Shown here: one piece after another, positions 14,962 through 48,046 of the stretch | Numbering within the stretch: position 1 is the stretch's first letter | How the letters are laid out: each line of letters opens with the position of its first letter | NCBI GenBank assembly: GCA_003162935.1 | Contig: PLUW01000023.1 | Location: 13,588-61,720, forward strand | DNA length: 48,133 nt | Reading direction: 5' to 3' | Origin: Acidobacteriaceae bacterium | Lineage (GTDB): Bacteria > Acidobacteriota > Terriglobia > Terriglobales > Acidobacteriaceae | The notes under the pieces: generated by a model | What the model was told of the DNA's origin: nothing | The model's input: only the letters and a program-made list of their open reading frames with translations | Databases searched by the model: none | Made by a program: the position numbers and the translations under genes

Positions 14962-15002
14962 GTTGAGTAGTTTACCGCGTGCGGTCTCTGTTGCTTATGT
15001 CG

Positions 15003-15023
15003 GGACGGGGCTCAGGCCCGTCC
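15003..15023. repeat. Palindromic repeat (GGACGGG hairpin)
   Basis: GGACGGG at 15003-15009 pairs perfectly with CCCGTCC at 15017-15023. The same GGACGGG/CCCGTCC core recurs at 43883-43904 and, in variant form, inside alaS at 42840-42860. Lies in the gap between rlmB and the thiolase gene. Confidence 0.7.
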
Positions 15024-15094
15024 AGTCTAGCCCCGCCTCCACGCGGACATCTGAGCTAAGTTTGGTCTAGACTGAAGCGTCCGGGAGGCTCCCG

Positions 15095-33497: not shown

Positions 33498-33579
33498 GGT
33501 GTCAGGTGTCATTTCTCCTGTGTCGGAGAACCTGGCGCGAACCGCCTTTCCTGAGACCTGAGACCCAACACCTGACACC
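33498..33579. repeat. Interspersed repeat with 12-bp inverted arms (CAGGTGT family)
   Basis: GGTGTCAGGTGT (33498-33509) and ACACCTGACACC (33568-33579) are perfect complements. Related to the element at 39341-39433. Confidence 0.85.
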
Positions 33580-33580
33580 T

Positions 33581-39340: not shown

Positions 39341-39433
39341 GTGTCAGGTCTCAGGTGTTAGGTCTCAGGAAAGGCCATAGCAATCGACAGAATGGGCGAA
39401 TCACGGCGAAGAGATTTTCCTGAGACCTGACAC
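39341..39433. repeat. Interspersed repeat with 15-bp perfect inverted arms
   Basis: GTGTCAGGTCTCAGG (39341-39355) and CCTGAGACCTGACAC (39419-39433) are exact complements; an inner pair GGTCTCAGGAAA/TTTCCTGAGACC extends the fold. Lies between the convergent Rieske and STAS-like genes. Confidence 0.9.
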
Positions 39434-39447
39434 CTTGGACCTGACAC

Positions 39448-39810
39448 CTACTCTCCCACCAGCCAGTCCATCGCCTCTTCCCGCGTCTTGAAGGTCGTAA
39501 TCTCGCGCTGGGAAAAGTTGTGGAAGTTTTCCATGAAGGCATGCGGAATGCCCTCCGCGCCTACCCATGCCGTCTTCTTCACGAAAGGCCGGTCGAGCGT
39601 CAGCACTTCTTTGATCTTGGTGGCCACGGCGTGATCCACAGTAGCGCCGGTGAAGTCGGCCAGCGTCACTACCGACTCGTGCGCGTGCCGCGCCACCGTG
39701 ACTCGCACATACTCGAGCAGAAGCTGCATCTCGTGGGTGCTGGAATGCGAAAAATCCAGCAGCAGAATCCGCTTGCCCTGGTGCTCGACGAATTTTATCC
39801 GGTCATCCAT
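39448..39810 (-). CDS. STAS/SpoIIAA-like small protein
   Basis: 120 residues with alternating strands and helices like the SpoIIAA/STAS-like fold (DDRIKFVEHQGKRILLLDFS, SVVTLADFTGATVDHAVATK, KKTAWVGAEGIPHAFMENF). These are often small regulatory or lipid-associated proteins in soil bacteria. GGGAG four bases before the ATG sets the start. It follows the lipase gene by 23 bp, so the two form an operon. Confidence 0.72.
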   Translation of the reverse strand: MDDRIKFVEHQGKRILLLDFSHSSTHEMQLLLEYVRVTVARHAHESVVTLADFTGATVDHAVATKIKEVLTLDRPFVKKTAWVGAEGIPHAFMENFHNFSQREITTFKTREEAMDWLVGE

Positions 39811-39833: not shown

Positions 39834-40736
39834 CTACGCCCTGCAACCCGCATCCACCGGCAGGCTCGCGTCCAGCCAGTGTAAATAGGTTTCCATCGAA
39901 TGCCAACACACCGGGTTCATCTTCGCCATCCCCTCGGACGAAAACTCATAGGCCGTATTCACATGCTCATAGTCGAGGATACCCGGAATGCGAAGCGGGA
40001 GCTTGGGCACCAGATCCCAGGAGTTGACGATGCGCCACGACGCGATGGGCAGCAAATTGAAAATTCGCACAAATTCCGTGTTGCCAACGCGGGGCGAGGC
40101 AAACTTGCACGACGTCGTGATGTCGAACTTCTTCTTCTCCTCGTTCTCCATCACGAAGAGCGTGGTCAGCGCTGCTCCCAGACTGTGCCCGGTCACAATG
40201 TAAGGACGCTCGGGCCGCCCCTTTGCCCGGTTGACCACCGTTTCTTTCGTGCTGACTCGCTCCAGTCGCTTGTGCAACTCCTCCAGTTGGTCGCCGAACG
40301 ATCCCTGCAACTCCGGCAGCGGCCCGGCTTCCAGCAAACGCCCCGCAGTCCGCGGATGCTGCTCGATCTTCAACGTGCTGTAGATCTTGTCGAAGCCGTG
40401 CGCCACCCGGCCCGCGTCCGGAACCTGCGCGAACGGGACCATGTAAGCCGAAGCGTCGTCCCACCATTCCACCAATCCTTCGGTGCCGCGAATGGCCACC
40501 GCGAAATCTGCTTGCGTATTCTTGTTGCGCGCGATCAGCCCATAGAACCGCGGCTCCGTGCGGCCGGGGATGAAGTCGGACATGTGAATCCAGGCCACGA
40601 ACTCATAAGGATCGGGGAGATCGCCCGGTTGAGGCTCGGGCCGAAGACTGGAAGGATCGCGCGTGAACATCGCATACGCGCCCTGCACCAGCCGGCCATA
40701 AAGAACCGCTTCGCCGTTCACCAGGGGTCGGCCCAT
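39834..40736 (-). CDS. Class 3 lipase-family alpha/beta hydrolase
   Basis: 300 residues. The nucleophile elbow is TGHSLGAALTTLF, with the catalytic Asp probably in NSWDLVPKLPLR and the His in VCWHSMETYLHW, as in fungal-type class 3 lipases. FAVAIRGTEGLVEWWDD is the conserved strand and oxyanion region. No signal peptide is seen, so the enzyme is probably intracellular or exported by an unusual route. AGGAGG six bases before the ATG at 40736 sets the start clearly. Operon with the STAS-like gene. Confidence 0.9.
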   Translation of the reverse strand: MGRPLVNGEAVLYGRLVQGAYAMFTRDPSSLRPEPQPGDLPDPYEFVAWIHMSDFIPGRTEPRFYGLIARNKNTQADFAVAIRGTEGLVEWWDDASAYMVPFAQVPDAGRVAHGFDKIYSTLKIEQHPRTAGRLLEAGPLPELQGSFGDQLEELHKRLERVSTKETVVNRAKGRPERPYIVTGHSLGAALTTLFVMENEEKKKFDITTSCKFASPRVGNTEFVRIFNLLPIASWRIVNSWDLVPKLPLRIPGILDYEHVNTAYEFSSEGMAKMNPVCWHSMETYLHWLDASLPVDAGCRA

Positions 40737-40785
40737 GAAGCACCTCCTAGGAAGGAATTGTGAATTGGATTGCCGGGTCTCGTTG

Positions 40786-40818
40786 CCTCTGTGATCCCCC
40801 GCGTCCTCCGTGGTTAAC
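40786..40818. repeat. Interspersed word repeat (CCTCTGTG...CGTCCTCCGTGG)
   Basis: Member of the CCGTGTCCTCTGTGG word family, in the gap between alaS and the lipase gene. Confidence 0.65.
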
Positions 40819-40842
40819 GCCTTTTTCCGCTCGCGGAGAACC

Positions 40843-43719
40843 TTACCCCAACAGCGACTCCACCACGCTGTAAGCCTCGCCCAAAGCCGAGTCCAGCGCC
40901 GCCGCATCTTTTCCGCCCGCTTCGGCCAGATCTGGACGCCCGCCGCCCTTGCCGCCAACCTTCTGCGCGATGGGCCCGATAACTTTTCCCGCCTGAATAC
41001 GTCCCGTGAGATCTTTGGTGACGCCGACAATCAGCGAGACGTTGCCATCCGAGGCCGAGGCCGACCCCAGCACCACCACGCCCGATCCAAGCTTGTCGCG
41101 CATCTGATCGACCAGCGTGCGCATCTGCGCCCGCTCCAGATTGTCCACGCGATGGGCCAGCACTTTAACTCCCTTAACCTCTTTGATTTTCTCGCCGATG
41201 TTAGCCGTCGACGACGATGCCGATTTCATCCGCGCCTGATCGAGTTCGCGCCCCAGCCGCTTGATCTCCGCGTCTTTCTTCTCGATCTCGGCCTTTAGAG
41301 CTTCTGCGGGCGTTGCCGGACCCTCCTCAGAGGCGGATGCCCCATCCTTGCGCGCTTTTTGCGCAAGGGTGGGTGAAACAAACGCCGACACCACTCCTTC
41401 CAACTCGTGGTCCTGGCGGAAGTGCGCCAGCGATCCCAACCCAGTGATCGCCTCAATACGCCGCACGCCCGACGACACGCTGCCTTCTTTCAATATCTTG
41501 ATCAGCCCAATCTCGCCCGTCGCCCCCGTGTGCGTGCCGCCGCAAAGTTCGGTGGAAAAATCTCCGATCTTAATCACGCGCACCTTGTCGCCATACTTCT
41601 CGCCAAACAGCGCCATCGCGTGATACTCATTGACAGCCACGTCAATCGGAACATTTTCGACAATTTCTACTTTTTCGTTGCGCAGAACTTCCTTGTTGAT
41701 GATGTCTTCAATATCCTGCAACTCCTCGTCGGCGACTCCAGTAAAGTGCGAAAAATCAAACCGCAGATGATTGGGAGCAACGAGCGACCCCGCCTGCTTC
41801 ACATGCTTCCCGAGAACTTCGCGCAGCCCCGCCTGAAGTAGATGCGTAGCCGTGTGATTGCGCATAGTGGATTCACGAATCGCGGCGTCCACCACGGCAT
41901 CGACTTTCTGGCTAACGCGAATTGGCTGCTTGGCTGTGACCTGATGCGCTCGCACTCCCTGCACCGGGTAGTAGCATCCAGTCACTTCGGCGACAACGGT
42001 GTTGTGATCATCAGAGTAAAGCCATCCGCGATCGCCAACCTGGCCGCCGGATTCAGCGTAGAACGGAGTGTGGTCAAAAATGATTTCGCCGGATTCTCCA
42101 GCCTTGAGCTCCTGTGCGCCTTGGCCGTCCTTGATGAGAGCCAGCACTTCGCAGCCATCGGAGCGAGTCTGACGATAGCCTTCGAATTCAGATTTCGGAA
42201 GCTGCTGATAGATAGGGTTGGCCGTCTGCTTCGCCGCGCCTTTCCATGAGGCGCGGGCACGCTCACGCTGCTCCTGCATCGCGTGATCGAAGCCCTGTTG
42301 ATCGAAAGAAATCCCTAGATCACGGCAGAAATCGATTATGAAGTCGAGGGGCAAACCATAAGTGTCGTAAAGCTTGAACGCGTGATCTCCCGGATAGGTC
42401 AAGGGGAGGCCTTGAGCCTTGATCATATCCAAGGTCCAGTTCTGCCCCGCGTTCGGCGCTCTGACGCCCGGGGCATTCATGAACTGACGCATGGCACCGT
42501 CCTCTAAGCGCTCGAATCCAATGTCCAGGGCGTGAGCAAACCGCGTTTCCTCCACCAGTACCGCCTTCGACACCCGGTCCGCCGACTCTTTCAACTCCGG
42601 GTAGGCATCCTGCATCAAGTCACGCACAGCAAACACCATTTCGTGCAGGAACGGATTTTCTTGTCCAAGCAATCGGCCGTGGGTGATGGCGCGACGAATG
42701 ATCTTCCGCAGCACGTATCCGCGTCCTTCATTCGATGGAGTTACTCCATCCGATATTAGAAAAGTTGCTGCACGGGAGTGGTCGGCAATCACGCGCAGGG
42801 AAGCTGCCGACTTAGAGCCTGCCGAGCTTTGCTCGGCTTGGACGGGCGAGGCGCTCGTCCCCGCACGGGCAGTGGCGCTTCCCGTCAACTCCGCCGCCCG
42901 CTTGATCAACGGAGTAAACAAATCTGTCTCGTAATTCGAAATCACCCCCTGCAGCACGGACGCCACGCGTTCCAATCCCATTCCCGTATCGATCGATGGT
43001 TTAGGCAGTAACTTGGTCACACCAGCCTGGCGATCGTATTGCATAAAAACCAGATTCCAGATCTCCACATAACGACCGCATTCACATCCGAACTCGCAGT
43101 CTGTGTGTCCTTGGTCGCTGGCCGCCACACCCATGTCGTAGTGAATCTCGCTACAGGGACCGCAGGGGCCGGTGTCGCCCATTTGCCAGAAGTTGTCCTT
43201 CCTACTCCCAGGGAAAATGCGCTCCTGGGGAACTCCTGCATCAAGCCAATATTGCTCCGCCTCACGGTCGCGCTCAACGTCGAAACCTAGCTCCCGGGAG
43301 GCCGCTGCTTTGTCGGCGTCATCAAAGATCGTTACGTAAAGCTTCCCCTTATCAATCCCAAACCACTCCGGCGAAGTAATCAGCTCCCAGGCGTACGCAA
43401 CCGCGTCTTTCTTGAAGTAATCGCCAAACGAAAAATTTCCCAGCATCTCAAAAAACGTGTGGTGACGATTGGTGAAGCCCACGTTTTCGAGATCGTTGTG
43501 CTTCCCTCCTGCACGCACGCATTTCTGCGAGGTCGTCGCCCGCGCGTAGTCGCGCTTTTCGAGGCCCAGGAAAACGTCCTTGAACTGATTCATCCCGGCG
43601 TTGGTAAAGAGCAGCGTCGGATCATTGGCCGGAACCAGCGACGAGGAGTGCACCTCGCGGTGTCCCTTCTGAATAAAGAAGTCGAGAAACTTGCGGCGAA
43701 TTTGGGAGCCTGTAAGCAT
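40843..43719 (-). CDS. alaS: Alanine-tRNA ligase, enlarged by in-frame repeats
   Basis: Charges tRNA-Ala. The catalytic core ([33 protein letters not shown], then [19 protein letters not shown]), editing domain with zinc ligands HTATHLLQ and [11 protein letters not shown], and C-Ala domain ending in [12 protein letters not shown] are all present, so it should be functional. It is 958 residues against 876 in E. coli AlaS. At least two extra segments coincide with palindromic repeats (42821-42860 and 41341-41373). ATG 43719 matches the family N terminus; a TTG at 43737 is in frame. Confidence 0.97.
41341..41373. repeat. Palindromic repeat inside alaS, C-Ala linker
   Basis: CCCATCCTTGCGC (41341-41353) and GCGCAAGGGTGGG (41361-41373) form a 13-bp stem with one G-T pair around a T-rich loop. 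It encodes part of the segment [19 protein letters not shown], absent from typical AlaS. Confidence 0.8.
42821..42860. repeat. Double palindromic repeat inside alaS, catalytic domain
   Basis: Two adjacent hairpins: GCCGAGC-TTT-GCTCGGC (42821-42837) and GGACGGGCG/CGCTCGTCC (42840-42860). They encode part of [19 protein letters not shown], an insertion just before the SLRVIADH motif. The second hairpin resembles the intergenic palindromes at 15003 and 43883. Confidence 0.8.
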
Positions 43720-43882
43720 GGGGGCTTGATTGGTCAAGATTAAATTCTAAACGATAAACCACAACGAGAAACAAGGCCCGGCTTGGCCGCTTCGGCGGGG
43801 GACGTTCGAAAGGCAAGCGGACGGTCCGCGGAAAGACCGCAGACCAAGGAATCCGCCTGCATGCGAGGCGAGCGATACAGCA

Positions 43883-43904
43883 GGACGGGCGGAGACGCCC
43901 GTCC
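43883..43904. repeat. Perfect 9-bp palindromic repeat (GGACGGGCG)
   Basis: GGACGGGCG, GAGA, CGCCCGTCC: a perfect 9-bp stem with a tetraloop, between alaS and the LEA-like gene. No T-tract follows on either strand, so it is a repeat rather than a terminator. Confidence 0.85.
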
Positions 43905-43922
43905 CTCCATTAACCTAACTAG

Positions 43923-44342
43923 CTACTTCACCGCGTCGTCGGTCTTCTCGGCGCCCGTCTTTACTCCGTGGCCGACTGCCTTGGTGCCTTTCTTCACGCC
44001 CTTGCCGGTATCCTTGGCAGCGGTCTTGGTGGCATCGCCGGTCTTGTCGGCGGCCTTTTCGGTGGCGTCGCCGGTTTTCACGGCCGCTTTCTTCGTGACG
44101 TGCGCCGTCTTCACGGCGGCGGTCTTGGTGGCGTGTCCAGTGTCCTTGGCAGCGGTTTCCGTCGCGTCGCCGGTCTTCACGGCGGCCTTCTTGGTGGCAT
44201 GCCCCGTCTTCACAGCGGCCTTTTTCGTCGCGCTGCCCGTGTCGTCGGCGGCCTTCTTCATGTCGTCCCCGGCCTGGCCGTAGGAGACCGCAGTCAGAGC
44301 CAGCAGCGCGGTTGCGATCGTCAAACAGAACTTCGTCTTCAT
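43923..44342 (-). CDS. Exported LEA-like protein with 11-residue repeats
   Basis: 139 residues: signal peptide (KTKFCLTIATALLALTAVSYG), then about nine consecutive 11-residue repeats of the type GHATKKAAVKT / GDATEKAADKT, Ala-, Lys- and Thr-rich and without hydrophobic core residues. This is the hallmark of group 3 LEA-type proteins, which fold as amphipathic helices on drying and protect membranes or proteins. GGAGG four bases before the ATG supports the start. Role in desiccation is inference from composition. An imperfect inverted-repeat element lies upstream. Confidence 0.85.
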   Translation of the reverse strand: MKTKFCLTIATALLALTAVSYGQAGDDMKKAADDTGSATKKAAVKTGHATKKAAVKTGDATETAAKDTGHATKTAAVKTAHVTKKAAVKTGDATEKAADKTGDATKTAAKDTGKGVKKGTKAVGHGVKTGAEKTDDAVK

Positions 44343-44426
44343 AGTTCCTCCAAGGGAATTGCAGATATTTTCGTTAGTGCAAAGTTTTATCAGAGTAGGT
44401 AGGCAGGCGCAATAGCGAAGCAGCGC

Positions 44427-44533
44427 CAGGTGTCAAAGTCTCAACCCTTCACAGCTTCAAAGAACCGGCGAAATCGACGCGACCGGTACCGCGTCGTCGT
44501 TGAAATTTTGAAACCCTGAAACTTTGAAACCTG
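44427..44533. repeat. Interspersed repeat with imperfect 25-bp inverted ends
   Basis: Arms 44427-44451 and 44509-44533 are inverted copies with about five or six mismatches; the clearest block is TCAAAGT/ACTTTGA. Placed immediately after the recX stop. Confidence 0.6.
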
Positions 44534-44535
44534 CT

Positions 44536-45072
44536 TTACGTTTCATTCTCCAGTTCGCTAAGCGTCTCTTCGTCTACGTCCCATTTTTTCAGGATCGTAA
44601 AGATGGTCTTCGATCCAAACCCCGCGCGCATCAATTGGCGGAAGATGCGAGCCGTCTGCTTCTGATCCCTGTCCTTGGGCTTCTGCAGCCGTTTGCGGCG
44701 TAGATAGGCGCGCGCGAGATTTTCTTCTTTCACATCGTCGTAAACGGAAGAAACCGCCTTCTCGATGACTTCACCGTGCACTCCCTTGGCTTTGAGGTCG
44801 TTGACGACGCGCATGCGCCCGAATTTTTCGTTGTCGCGCCGATAGGACGAAAAAGCCGTCGCGTACTTCGCGTCGTTCAGATAGCCCTGATCTTTCAGGC
44901 GGACGACAATCAACTCCACCAGCGTCTTGCCGAACTCCGTATCGGCTTCGACGCGATTACGCAGCAGGCGCTTCAACTCCGCAACCGACCGCATGCGGCG
45001 CGCCAGGGCGCCAACGGCGTACTCGTAAAGCTCCGCTTCGGTAAAGAGTTTTCTGGGACGGCCAAACGCCAT
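44536..45072 (-). CDS. recX: Regulatory protein RecX
   Basis: 178 residues of the RecX family, which modulates RecA filaments. Tandem three-helix repeats are visible: YAVGALARRMRSVAELKRLL, DQGYLNDAKYATAFSSYRRD, RMRVVNDLKAKGVHGEVIEK, and a final helical repeat (FRQLMRAGFGSKTIFTILKK). recA is not in the window. The ATG at 45072 has no clear Shine-Dalgarno. It is followed by repeat DNA. Confidence 0.92.
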   Translation of the reverse strand: MAFGRPRKLFTEAELYEYAVGALARRMRSVAELKRLLRNRVEADTEFGKTLVELIVVRLKDQGYLNDAKYATAFSSYRRDNEKFGRMRVVNDLKAKGVHGEVIEKAVSSVYDDVKEENLARAYLRRKRLQKPKDRDQKQTARIFRQLMRAGFGSKTIFTILKKWDVDEETLSELENET

Positions 45073-45130
45073 GCTTACACGATAGCGCGAGAAAGGGCTC
45101 GTGGGTTAGCGCGGGGCGCCCGGCGCAATT

Positions 45131-45721
45131 TTATTTCGCCGGCGCGGAACTCGGGAACCCTGGCGCGGGCGGTATCGGAGACACAAGCGGCACAGTTGTC
45201 GTCGCCGCATTCGCTCCGACGGGCGCGACCAGCTCCGCTTTTGCTGCAGGCGGCAGCTTGTCGGCATTCGCCAGCAGCAGCGCCATCTGCCACATCTGCG
45301 TCTCCGAAAGGGTTTTGCTGAAGCCGGGCATACCGGTCAGTCGAATGCCGTTGAAGATCTTCCAGTAGGTCTCGCCCGGCTCGTCGTCGGTCACACCCTT
45401 TCCCTGGAATAGCTGCGGCGGCCGCGGATACATTCCCGTCGCGATTGCCGTCTTCGGCGACAACGGCAAGCCGTGGCAAACTCCGCAATGCTGCTTGTAC
45501 AGTTCCGCCCCGGCCACGTAGTTGGTTTCGGTCGGCTGGATCGGAACGTTCTTCGGCATGTCTTTCGCAATGCGCGCATTCAAAGCCTTGTGCGCGAAGT
45601 AATTCTCGAACGGCATATCCGAATCGGTCGTGGCCACGGGCGCCGCGCCGCCCGTGAAATACAAATAAGCGCCGAAGGGCACGATGAGAAGTCCGAGTAT
45701 CAGTCCGCCGATGAATTTCAC
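45131..45721 (-). CDS. Membrane-anchored c-type cytochrome
   Basis: 196 residues with an N-terminal membrane anchor (FIGGLILGLLIVPFGAYLYF), then a periplasmic domain with heme motif CGVCH in YKQHCGVCHGLPLSP and a probable distal Met in GIRLTGMPGFSKTL; the C terminus is Ala/Pro-rich. A single-heme electron carrier, likely tied to respiration. GTG at 45721 with AGGA eight bases upstream is my start; a GTG at 45760 is also in frame. Confidence 0.88.
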   Translation of the reverse strand: MKFIGGLILGLLIVPFGAYLYFTGGAAPVATTDSDMPFENYFAHKALNARIAKDMPKNVPIQPTETNYVAGAELYKQHCGVCHGLPLSPKTAIATGMYPRPPQLFQGKGVTDDEPGETYWKIFNGIRLTGMPGFSKTLSETQMWQMALLLANADKLPPAAKAELVAPVGANAATTTVPLVSPIPPAPGFPSSAPAK

Positions 45722-45952
45722 TGGCTTGTTCCTGCCTTTCTGAATTTCATACTTTACCACTGCGACCTAGCGTCGAAGCCAGTTTAATTGACATCCGATT
45801 TCCGGTAGCTCGGGCGGCGAGATGGGCAGGCCCTCCGAGACGGCTCTAAGCGCCCTCACAGGCCGCCTTCATCTGCCCCGCCACAGCCGCCAACGTTGTT
45901 ACAATCAAGCAGCAGTCTCCCCTCCGTTCACGTGGGCTTCTGAGCAGTGCAC

Positions 45953-48046
45953 ATGCAGAAATTTGACGAACATTTCGACGTTGTCGTGGTCGGAGCCGGT
46001 CATGCCGGATGCGAAGCCGCCATGGCATCCGCTCGCCTGGGCCTGAAGACGGCGCTCTTCACGTTGAATGTCGACCTGATCGCCCAAATGTCGTGCAACC
46101 CCGCCATTGGCGGCATCGCCAAGGGCCATCTCGTCCGCGAAGTCGACGCGCTCGGCGGCATCATGGGCGAAATCACCGACGCCGTCGGAATCCAATTTCG
46201 CCTGCTCAACACTTCCCGCGGCCCCGCCGTCTGGTCGCCCCGCGCCCAGTGCGACAAGCAAGCCTATCGCCTGAAGATGCGCGAGGTCCTCGAATCGCAG
46301 CCGAACCTCAGCATCAAGCAGGCCGAGGTGGCGGATGTGATCATGGAGCAGTTGCCAGCCGCCAGCTGTCACCTGCCAGTTACACCTGGCGCGACTGACA
46401 ACTGGCAACCGGCAACTGGCAACCGTATCACCGGCATCCTCCTCCGCGACGGCCGTCGCGTCTCCGCCGAAGCCGTCATCGTCACCACCGGAACCTTTCT
46501 CAACGGCCTCATTCATTGCGGCGAACAGCAGTATCCGGCCGGACGCTCGGGAGAACCCGCCGCCATTCTGCTCGGCGAAGCGCTCAAGAACCTCGGCCTG
46601 CGCGGATGCCGCCTCAAAACCGGCACGCCTCCACGCCTCGACGGCCGTACCATCGACTGGTCGCGCTTCGAGCGCCAGCCCGGCGATGTCGATCCCACGC
46701 CCTTTAGTTTCCGCACCCGCCGCGTCGCCCATCACGACTCGCAGGTGCCGTGCTACATCGCGTTCACCACCGAAGAAACGCATCGCATCATTCGCGAGAA
46801 CGTGCATCGCTCGCCCATGTATAGTGGGCAAATTCAATCGACCGGCCCGCGCTATTGTCCATCGATTGAAGACAAAATCGTCAAGTTCCCCGACAAACTT
46901 ACGCATCAGCTGTTTCTGGAGCCCGAGGGCCTCAACACCCACGAAATCTACGTCAACGGCATGAGCACCTCGCTGCCAATCGACGTGCAACTCGCGATTC
47001 TCAAGTCCATCCCCGGACTCGAAAACGCCGAGATGATGCGTCCCGGCTACGCCATCGAATACGACTCCATCGATCCCACCGAACTGAAGCGCACGCTGGA
47101 AACGAAAAAAGTCGTCGGCTTGTTCCTCGGCGGACAGATTAATGGCACGTCAGGCTACGAAGAAGCGGCGTGCCAGGGACTCATGGCGGGCATCAACGCC
47201 GCGCTGAAAGTTAAGCAAGAACCTCCGCTGATTCTCGACCGCACCGAAGCCTACACCGCCATCCTGATCGACGACCTGATCTCAAAAGGCACCAACGAGC
47301 CATATCGCATGTTCACCTCGCGCGCCGAATTCCGCCTGCACCTGCGCATCGACAATGCCGATCGCCGCCTAACTCCGCATGGCCGCCGCGTGGGCCTGAT
47401 CTCGGATGAAGCCTGGAACGAGTTTGAAGCGAAGCAGGCCAGGCTGGAAGAAGTAAAGCAAATCCTCGACAAAACCAAACTCACCGCAGCCATCGCGGAA
47501 CTCGTGCTGGAACCGGCAAGCGTGGTGACGGGAATCCGCCCCGTCGAAGTCGATCCGAGCTCGACTGCTGTCGCTGGCAGCGCGACGGATCTGTCCTCAG
47601 CAATCGGTCAGCCTTTGTCGCAACTGCTGAAGCGCCCCGAAATCGTCATCGAGCAACTAGCGCCCATTCTGCAAAATATCGTGCCCAGCTTTTTCGAAAG
47701 AACTTCCTCTGTGCCCCCCGTGTACCCTGTGGTAAAGATTTCCTCCGAAGTCCGCAACGAGCTCAAGTCCATCGAAACGGAAATCAAATACGCCGGCTAT
47801 CTCGACCAGCAACAGCGCGCCATCGATCGCCTGAAAAAGGCCGAATTGCGCCGCATTCCTGACTGGTTCGACTACCGTGCCGTCAGTGGTCTATCGCGCG
47901 AGATGCAGGAGACACTCGGCAAAGTCGTCCCCCAGACGATCGGCCAAGCCTCGCGAATCCCCGGCGTAACGCCAGCCGCCGTTTCACTAATTAACGTCTA
48001 TATTGAAATCCAGGCTCGGCGCCGCGACCAAGCCGCGGCGTTGTAG
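45953..48046 (+). CDS. mnmG: tRNA uridine-5-carboxymethylaminomethyl modification enzyme, with in-frame repeats
   Basis: MnmG (GidA) acts with MnmE to modify U34 of tRNAs using FAD. Motifs are the FAD loop [69 protein letters not shown] and the C-terminal [17 protein letters not shown]. At 697 residues it is much longer than E. coli MnmG (629). Two extra segments coincide with repeat DNA at 46351-46424 and 47706-47737. ATG at 45953 is preferred over GTG at 45947. mnmE and rsmG are not in the window. Confidence 0.97.
46351..46424. repeat. CTGGCAAC-type repeat inserted in mnmG
   Basis: GTTGCCAG (46351-46358) is complementary to CTGGCAAC (46402-46409), followed by a direct copy of CTGGCAACCG at 46416. 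Encodes a segment ([23 protein letters not shown]) absent from E. coli MnmG at this place. Confidence 0.75.
47706..47737 (+). repeat. CCGTGTACCCTGTGG-word repeat inserted in mnmG
   Basis: Contains GTGTACCCTGTGGT (47720-47733), identical to 31485-31498 in the MITE-like intergenic element. Encodes [11 protein letters not shown], an unusual segment in this region of MnmG. Confidence 0.75.

Follow-up and report, generated by a model that had tools for sequence, protein, structure and literature searches.

A REP-like palindromic element, probably tolerated as an in-frame loop peptide, in the alaS gene of an Acidobacteriaceae bacterium

Rickettsia offers the best-known examples of translated palindromic repeats. 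Here we describe a repeat that appears to work in a similar way, in a 48,133-nt stretch of DNA from an Acidobacteriaceae bacterium (contig PLUW01000023.1 of assembly GCA_003162935.1, positions 13,588 to 61,720; the whole stretch is hereafter the window) in which the alanyl-tRNA synthetase gene, alaS, carries two adjacent hairpins within its coding sequence. The unit to which they belong is ~49 nt long and consists of a GTGTGG tag, a 21-22-nt hairpin with a 9-bp stem (hairpin A), a 2-nt junction and a 17-nt hairpin with a 7-bp stem (hairpin B). The alaS insert is very probably a copy of a short, non-autonomous palindromic element, similar to repetitive extragenic palindromes (REPs), that has multiplied in a genus of Terriglobia and is tolerated within genes as an inert in-frame loop peptide.

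Rickettsia palindromic elements (RPEs) and Wolbachia palindromic elements (WPEs) are described as short palindromic repeats that lie in frame in unrelated genes, encode a conserved peptide and also occur between genes (PMC10969869; PMC3733652 for RPE-4 and RPE-6). The present element is like them in being inserted in frame in unrelated protein genes, as well as between genes, with a recurring peptide. The preliminary description of this DNA had proposed the analogy, which stands as an account of behaviour, i.e. in-frame coding copies alongside intergenic ones, and does not extend to family membership, RPEs having been compared by description only. On that basis RPEs, at ~150 bp (PMC10969869), differ from a ~49-nt unit with two hairpins and a GTGTGG tag found in Terriglobia from soil and peat metagenome-assembled genomes (MAGs).

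Intragenic REPs have been reported in UvrD/Rep helicases, tRNA synthetases and repair genes of other bacteria (Di Nocera 2013, PMC3733652), in a paper whose searched text names Acidobacteria once, for tyrosine transposases. Those of the GTAG kind, in particular the Opitutus terrae elements with GTGG tags, resemble the present element as multi-copy, chiefly intergenic palindromes with an unpaired end tag, whereas the latter lies away from genes for REP-associated tyrosine transposases (RAYTs) in the loci examined, has two hairpins per unit and has one dominant translated frame. CGTC-tagged REPs, which include RPE-4 and RPE-6, share with it stems of 8-9 bp, intragenic copies and the lack of a known dedicated transposase (PMC3733652); the element differs from them in its GTGTGG tag, in having CGTCC only within a stem, and in its second hairpin. 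It is also like miniature inverted-repeat transposable elements in being non-autonomous and dispersed, with inverted repeats, but long terminal inverted repeats are absent from its profile of 78 copies. Our search of the open-access literature, with subscription papers mostly outside it, found no prior report of intragenic palindromic repeats in Acidobacteriota.

The alaS insert and its repeat family

The alaS open reading frame (ORF) spans 40843-43737 on the minus strand, probably starts at its first ATG (43719, 18 bases in) and is the single AlaS match in the source assembly. Within it, the element copy occupies 42818-42866 (minus strand) and comprises a GTGCGG tag, hairpin A (42840-42860, minus; GGACGGGCG-AGG-CGCTCGTCC, a 9-bp stem with one mismatch and a 3-nt loop), an AA junction, hairpin B (42821-42837, minus; GCCGAGC-TTT-GCTCGGC, a perfect 7-bp stem with a 3-nt loop) and AGG, the coding strand across the insert reading GTGCGG GGACGAGCG CCT CGCCCGTCC AA GCCGAGC AAA GCTCGGC AGG. 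Both hairpins sit inside the ORF directly ahead of the SLRVIADH motif, as the preliminary description had it. Its figure of about 24 extra residues has to be lowered: the peptide that it quoted has 19, the insert corresponds to a 19-residue gap against E. coli AlaS (3hxu), and the loop, at 46 codons, is nine residues longer net than the 37-codon loop commonest among same-genus relatives, in which loops without an insert run from 30 to 42 codons. With a net gain of only nine residues, the insert must have replaced part of a variable loop. A second AlaS loop, from IGFERLED to FKLYDTYG, ranges from 30 to 107 residues across the genus and is longest in loci L045, L039, L040, L044 and L041.

A covariance model built from 51 of 102 distinct intergenic copies matches the insert with 66.3 bits (E 3.6e-16 in the window, 2.8e-14 in the 3.6-Mb assembly). 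The alaS copy ranks third among the model matches in its own genome, which number 58 at E<=0.1 (a few being both strands of one place), and the two-hairpin pattern with at most three mismatches finds eight matches there against none in a reversed control. That hairpins arose by chance in an ordinary hypervariable loop of GC-rich DNA is scarcely credible. The AlaS loop does vary in length and sequence across the genus, and the window shows no surplus of a relaxed 22-nt palindrome pattern (2 matches, being one place on both strands, against 1.11 expected, the alaS copy falling outside the pattern with a loop shorter by one base); yet the genome-wide E value, the empty reversed control and the near-identical copies elsewhere all tell against chance, which the genome-wide copy searches rule out. 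The 22-nt single-palindrome pattern, corresponding to single-hairpin relatives of ~22 nt, gave 33 matches per strand against 13 and 8 in the reversed control. The 57-nt alaS strand forms both hairpins, with a z score of -2.25 as DNA (4 of 200 shuffles equally stable) and -1.55 as RNA (15 of 200), so that folding energy by itself is only modestly unusual.

The consensus unit, GTGTGGGGACGGGCGCCTCGCCCGTCCAAGCCGAGCGAAGCTCGGCAGC, was taken from a position profile of 78 distinct copies from two genomes, G003 and G009, in which conservation begins at GTGTGG and fades past hairpin B, the flanks being unconserved. Its 28-nt core, with at most three mismatches, occurs in 18 of the 24 genus genomes (assemblies of 2.9-6.1 Mb) with 162 matches summed, most richly in G003 (44) and G009 (34), and has no match in the reversed control; at the same stringency it is found in none of 395 other genomes of the phylum, a draw without other members of the genus. 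These copies bear out the earlier suggestion of a repeat family able to land in an essential synthetase. The model search across genomes, in which 150 first-look candidates were scored per genome and counts are bounded accordingly, returned at E<=0.001 at least 145 matches in G003, at least 151 in G009, at least 24 in G015 and at least 18 in G006, together with at least 49 in G124, a genome of another genus in the same family, and none in G113, G026, G030 or G039. A degenerate pattern matched exactly against the species collection yielded 57 stretches, all titled as Acidobacteriaceae, Terriglobia or Acidobacteria bacterium MAGs, with bog, fen, palsa and soil depth as sources in their isolate and scaffold names; residence is thus in Acidobacteriota and not, as for RPEs, in Rickettsiales.

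Genic copies and their reading frames

For 152 distinct copies, comprising most of the 162 core matches (most of the 12 from G017 were left out, its AlaS copy being supplied by the AlaS search), position relative to genes was assigned with our own codon-usage gene finder, trained on the genus AlaS ORFs and ten ORFs of the window. By this classification 110 are intergenic, 31 lie in genes with a good coding score on both sides, three in genes where one side scores weakly, and eight fall at edges. With ~80% of the fetched loci called coding, 34 of 152 copies in genes indicates depletion from genes. Among the best 30 own-genome loci, 28 could be anchored, of which 18 are intergenic, six in genes and four at edges (the edge anchors of L351 and L357 look wrong).

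Family searches identify the hosts as MnmE (two sites), PcrA/UvrD helicase, SelA, SelD, RecJ, class II ribonucleotide reductase and AlaS, with a ThiO-type oxidase, Dpp5-type peptidases (two sites), a molybdopterin oxidoreductase, a 4-hydroxybenzoyl-CoA reductase-type subunit, MacB/FtsX permeases and a polyketide synthase/non-ribosomal peptide synthetase (PKS/NRPS) protein as further hosts; the own-genome model search adds, at lower scores, MetG, MnmG (in the window), a 2-oxoacid dehydrogenase E2 and an MsbA-type transporter. In two G009 loci, L152 (mnmE) and L168 (molybdopterin oxidoreductase), TGAP-x-x-PGFGLTGW-x-x-SA directly follows the element peptide, which suggests a second repeat nested in or fused with the element.

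The consensus is open in all six frames, yet its use is far from even. The 31 strict in-gene copies are read 20 times in the frame that gives the main peptide VGTGASPVQAERSSA (the TGASPVQAE frame), five times in the DGRLARP frame and six times in the reverse RSAWTGEAP frame, with the other three frames unused; 20 of 31 in one frame has a P of 3.5e-9 against 1/6. Grouped by hand into 17 sites (AlaS twice), the counts by frame are 13, 3, 1, 0, 0 and 0 (P 9.3e-8 for at least 13 of 17 in one named frame), and with AlaS counted once 12 of 16 sites share the frame (P 4.3e-7, or 2.6e-6 after a sixfold correction for frame choice). Codon scores single out the reverse frame (0.99) and the TGASPVQAE frame (-0.29) as the most host-like, the rest ranging from -4.1 to -8.9 and the third frame in use scoring -5.7; the MetG, MnmG, E2 and transporter sites in the source genome employ only the TGASPVQAE or the reverse frame. 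Coding and intergenic copies thus both exist, and the former strongly favour one frame. Such a pattern would fit a process in which genic copies survive only in frame, in a loop or linker, and with an innocuous peptide, mainly VGTGASPVQAERSSA and less often AELRSAWTGEAPVPT or one of 15 residues.

The search core does not reach the 3' arm of hairpin B, which therefore offers a fair test of pairing. With loops of 2-5 nt allowed, 49 of 150 copies have a variant 5' arm, of which 19 still pair fully (e.g. GCGGAGC/GCTCCGC) and 17 pair at six of seven positions, some having changed on one side only. In the 51-row alignment 92.4% of cells pair, and changes on both sides affect nine cells against 2.2 expected, both this count and the covariation score lying above all 500 shuffles.

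Filled and empty sites

The contrast between occupied and empty sites is clearest in class II ribonucleotide reductase: 17-19 extra residues are present in five of 16 readable relatives (G008, G012, G014, G004 and G017), and a uniform short loop, empty, in the other 11, two further rows being unreadable there. Two subtypes occupy the one site, TGVSPVQAERSSA and TAAPGRPAERSSA, the latter in G004 and G017, and the flanks of filled and empty sites are highly diverged. In the reductase inserts L372 and L374 the first hairpin is 22 nt long and the junction one base short, opposite length changes that leave the reading of PAERSSA downstream intact. Many relatives have the element, or what remains of it, in the same loops of SelD and PcrA; in many genus members the SelD loop before HALTD (L281-L298) holds element copies, truncated copies or repeat-like RPTTNDAF and variants. 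To judge from the alignments, the inserts would lie in loops or linkers.

In AlaS the insert is present in four of 17 readable genus genes (G000, G017, G001 and G015), and none of 13 AlaS loci outside the genus has a model match below E 0.2; the residues are therefore not common to Acidobacteriota AlaS, and an ancestral AlaS feature is ruled out. In the AlaS tree G000 and G017 are sisters (support 81/89), and G001 groups with the insert-free G002 (95/80). What G015 carries is a relative of the unit turned the other way round, which the model matches on the opposite strand at 31.9 bits and which is read in a frame ending in ...SPVPT. Opposite orientations require at least two insertions into the AlaS loop; by the tree the loop would most simply have been invaded three times. 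The stretch before SLRVIADH may accordingly be a permissive place, entered repeatedly within the genus.

Some shared inserts are less diverged at synonymous sites (pS) than the rest of their genes. For the PcrA insert, compared over nine species, none of 476 overlapping windows of the gene has synonymous divergence as low, the insert being the lowest of the gene; as low a value occurs in two of 630 windows for the ribonucleotide reductase pair G008/G014 and in 16 of 823 for the AlaS pair G000/G017. Such values could come from recurrent insertion, from gene conversion or from a constraint on the nucleic acid. The last would be in keeping with the hairpins being a selected functional DNA or RNA structure within genes (a pause site, mRNA control or protein binding), as would the compensated arms of hairpin B, but we regard this as improbable: G012 retains a similar reductase peptide with its palindromes decayed, and in the three-species set that includes it pS is 0.57, with 378 of 630 windows as low; the G004/G017 pair is unremarkable (136 of 863); and the host genes are unrelated, with most AlaS and ribonucleotide reductase relatives lacking the insert. 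Somewhat more credible, though still on the doubtful side, is that gene conversion among copies, or repeated insertion at one loop, keeps genic copies young and alike, for which the low pS at shared sites, the two reductase subtypes at one site and an AlaS loop struck at least twice all speak; against it, each insert offers only ~14-16 synonymous sites.

The ratio pN/pS is higher in the inserts than in their flanks (0.18 vs 0.06 and 0.42 vs 0.12 for the two reductase subtypes, 0.41 vs 0.14 for AlaS and 0.68 vs 0.28 for PcrA, single PcrA pairs ranging from 0 to 1.78); summed values below 1 but above the flanks leave room for weak constraint on the peptide at most.

Mobilisation, further repeats and implications

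In the broad sense the element has the features of a REP, being multi-copy and palindromic, with a common consensus and a location mainly outside genes, while against the ~14-40 nt given for REPs the unit measures ~49 nt and its single-hairpin relatives ~22 nt. Its tag, GTGTGG, places GTGG directly 5' of the stem, and GTGG is reported as a variant tag for most Opitutus GTAG-20 elements (PMC3733652). Matches to PF01797 (Y1 tyrosine transposase) are found in 22 of the 24 genus genomes. Both observations would suit a REP of the GTAG superfamily moved by a Y1 transposase of the genus. We nevertheless think this unlikely: no copy of the element was found at 20 RAYT loci, with flanks to 1.5 kb and at most one locus per genome, although RAYT flanking characterises the GTAG superfamily; the eight loci with the strongest matches (L086-L093) have their own, different hairpins on one or both sides (e.g. 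CCCAGCGC/GCGCTGGG or CCCACGGC/GCCGTGGG); and PF01797 has no match in the source genome assembly, which is 83% complete. A RAYT as the cognate enzyme is thus unsupported. The eight loci themselves constitute a RAYT-REP-like arrangement in Acidobacteriota. CGTC REPs are marked by an unpaired CGTC, AT in the first two stem pairs and a CCA-type tail; the element does not belong with them, its stem beginning with GG and its tag being GTGTGG. Since the element behaves like intragenic REPs and RPEs, but has neither a CGTC tag nor, in the 20 loci examined, RAYT adjacency, we place it in the broad kind of REPs and translated palindromes.

A bounded and tagged hairpin unit, its dispersal, and gene sites that are occupied in some relatives and empty in others all suggest a non-autonomous element mobilised in trans. 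We envisage copy-and-insert spread, probably through the single strand in folded form and by means of an enzyme encoded elsewhere, with genic copies presumably translated as neutral peptides.

Several observations weigh against this interpretation. The searches with PF01797 and at the 20 RAYT loci yielded no cognate transposase, and the relatives are too diverged for a target duplication or excision to be seen, so that mobility is argued from dispersal. Neutral decay following one old insertion does not explain the low pS at the shared pcrA and alaS inserts and at one ribonucleotide reductase pair. Only three of 16 inner branches of the AlaS tree are well supported, and the G000/G017 and G001 inserts may go back to one old gain with losses. 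Covariation is not uniform: 13 of the 49 variant hairpin B arms pair at five or fewer positions, the number of base pairs with a change on both sides (three against 1.7 expected, equalled in 88 of 500 shuffles) is not exceptional, and sliding the alignment by -3 or +2 columns matches the count of nine both-side cells. Finally, the frame calls depend on our own codon-based gene finder, the 31 copies were grouped into 17 sites by eye, and a gene-breaking copy would be classed as intergenic or at an edge, the in-gene counts being valid for intact frames only.

The window contains further members of the family. A degenerate second coding copy (47520-47568, plus strand; 31.0 bits, E 1.4e-6) lies in mnmG/gidA (45947-48046, plus strand; TIGR00136, E 1.1e-245, the match splitting into two stretches of which the best stops at residue 514) and shares its reading frame with the alaS copy. 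The preliminary description had named two intergenic relatives, which fare differently: that upstream of alaS (43880-43910, minus strand) is supported as a single-hairpin relative (24.2 bits, E 9.6e-5 in the window) and is an exact palindrome, with GGAG preceding the stem (GGAG-GGACGGGCGTCTCCGCCCGTCC), whereas that at 14997-15031 (plus strand) is weak (15.5 bits, E 0.022 in the window), with 7-bp arms GGACGGG/CCCGTCC and a different loop. Other repeats are also present. Eight 33-bp direct repeats stand in tandem at 43939-44299, encoding 11-residue repeats in a predicted minus-strand gene (~43923-44324), and a second kind of dispersed repeat, of the CCTGAGACCTGACACCT type, occurs at 33537-33580 and 39406-39449, its two copies being 80% alike. 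An Rfam search of 40500-45500 returned nothing near a gathering score, the best hits (E 0.51 and 0.74, to a long non-coding RNA and a microRNA family) being far below threshold.

A bolder reading, which we hold to be less likely than not, is that of a family of protein-coding palindromes living outside Rickettsiales, with a consensus that itself lends itself to translation, having six open frames of which the two most host-like would give inert linkers. Under this reading the family would enter the same loops of essential genes again and again, and the copies that relatives share would thereby remain younger than the genes around them. If so, it would be a selfish repeat pre-adapted to life in genes, and its copies in AlaS, MnmE, PcrA and ribonucleotide reductase would provide a set of linkers inserted in frame by nature. 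Independently of that reading, the behaviour of the Rickettsia repeats appears to recur in soil and peat Acidobacteriota, in a gene, alaS, that is essential. The copies, species and pairs of filled and empty sites are numerous enough to determine in which frames, loops and proteins such a repeat can be borne, and how mobile repeats become parts of proteins becomes a testable question, for which a tRNA synthetase and other core enzymes with naturally inserted linkers provide the material.

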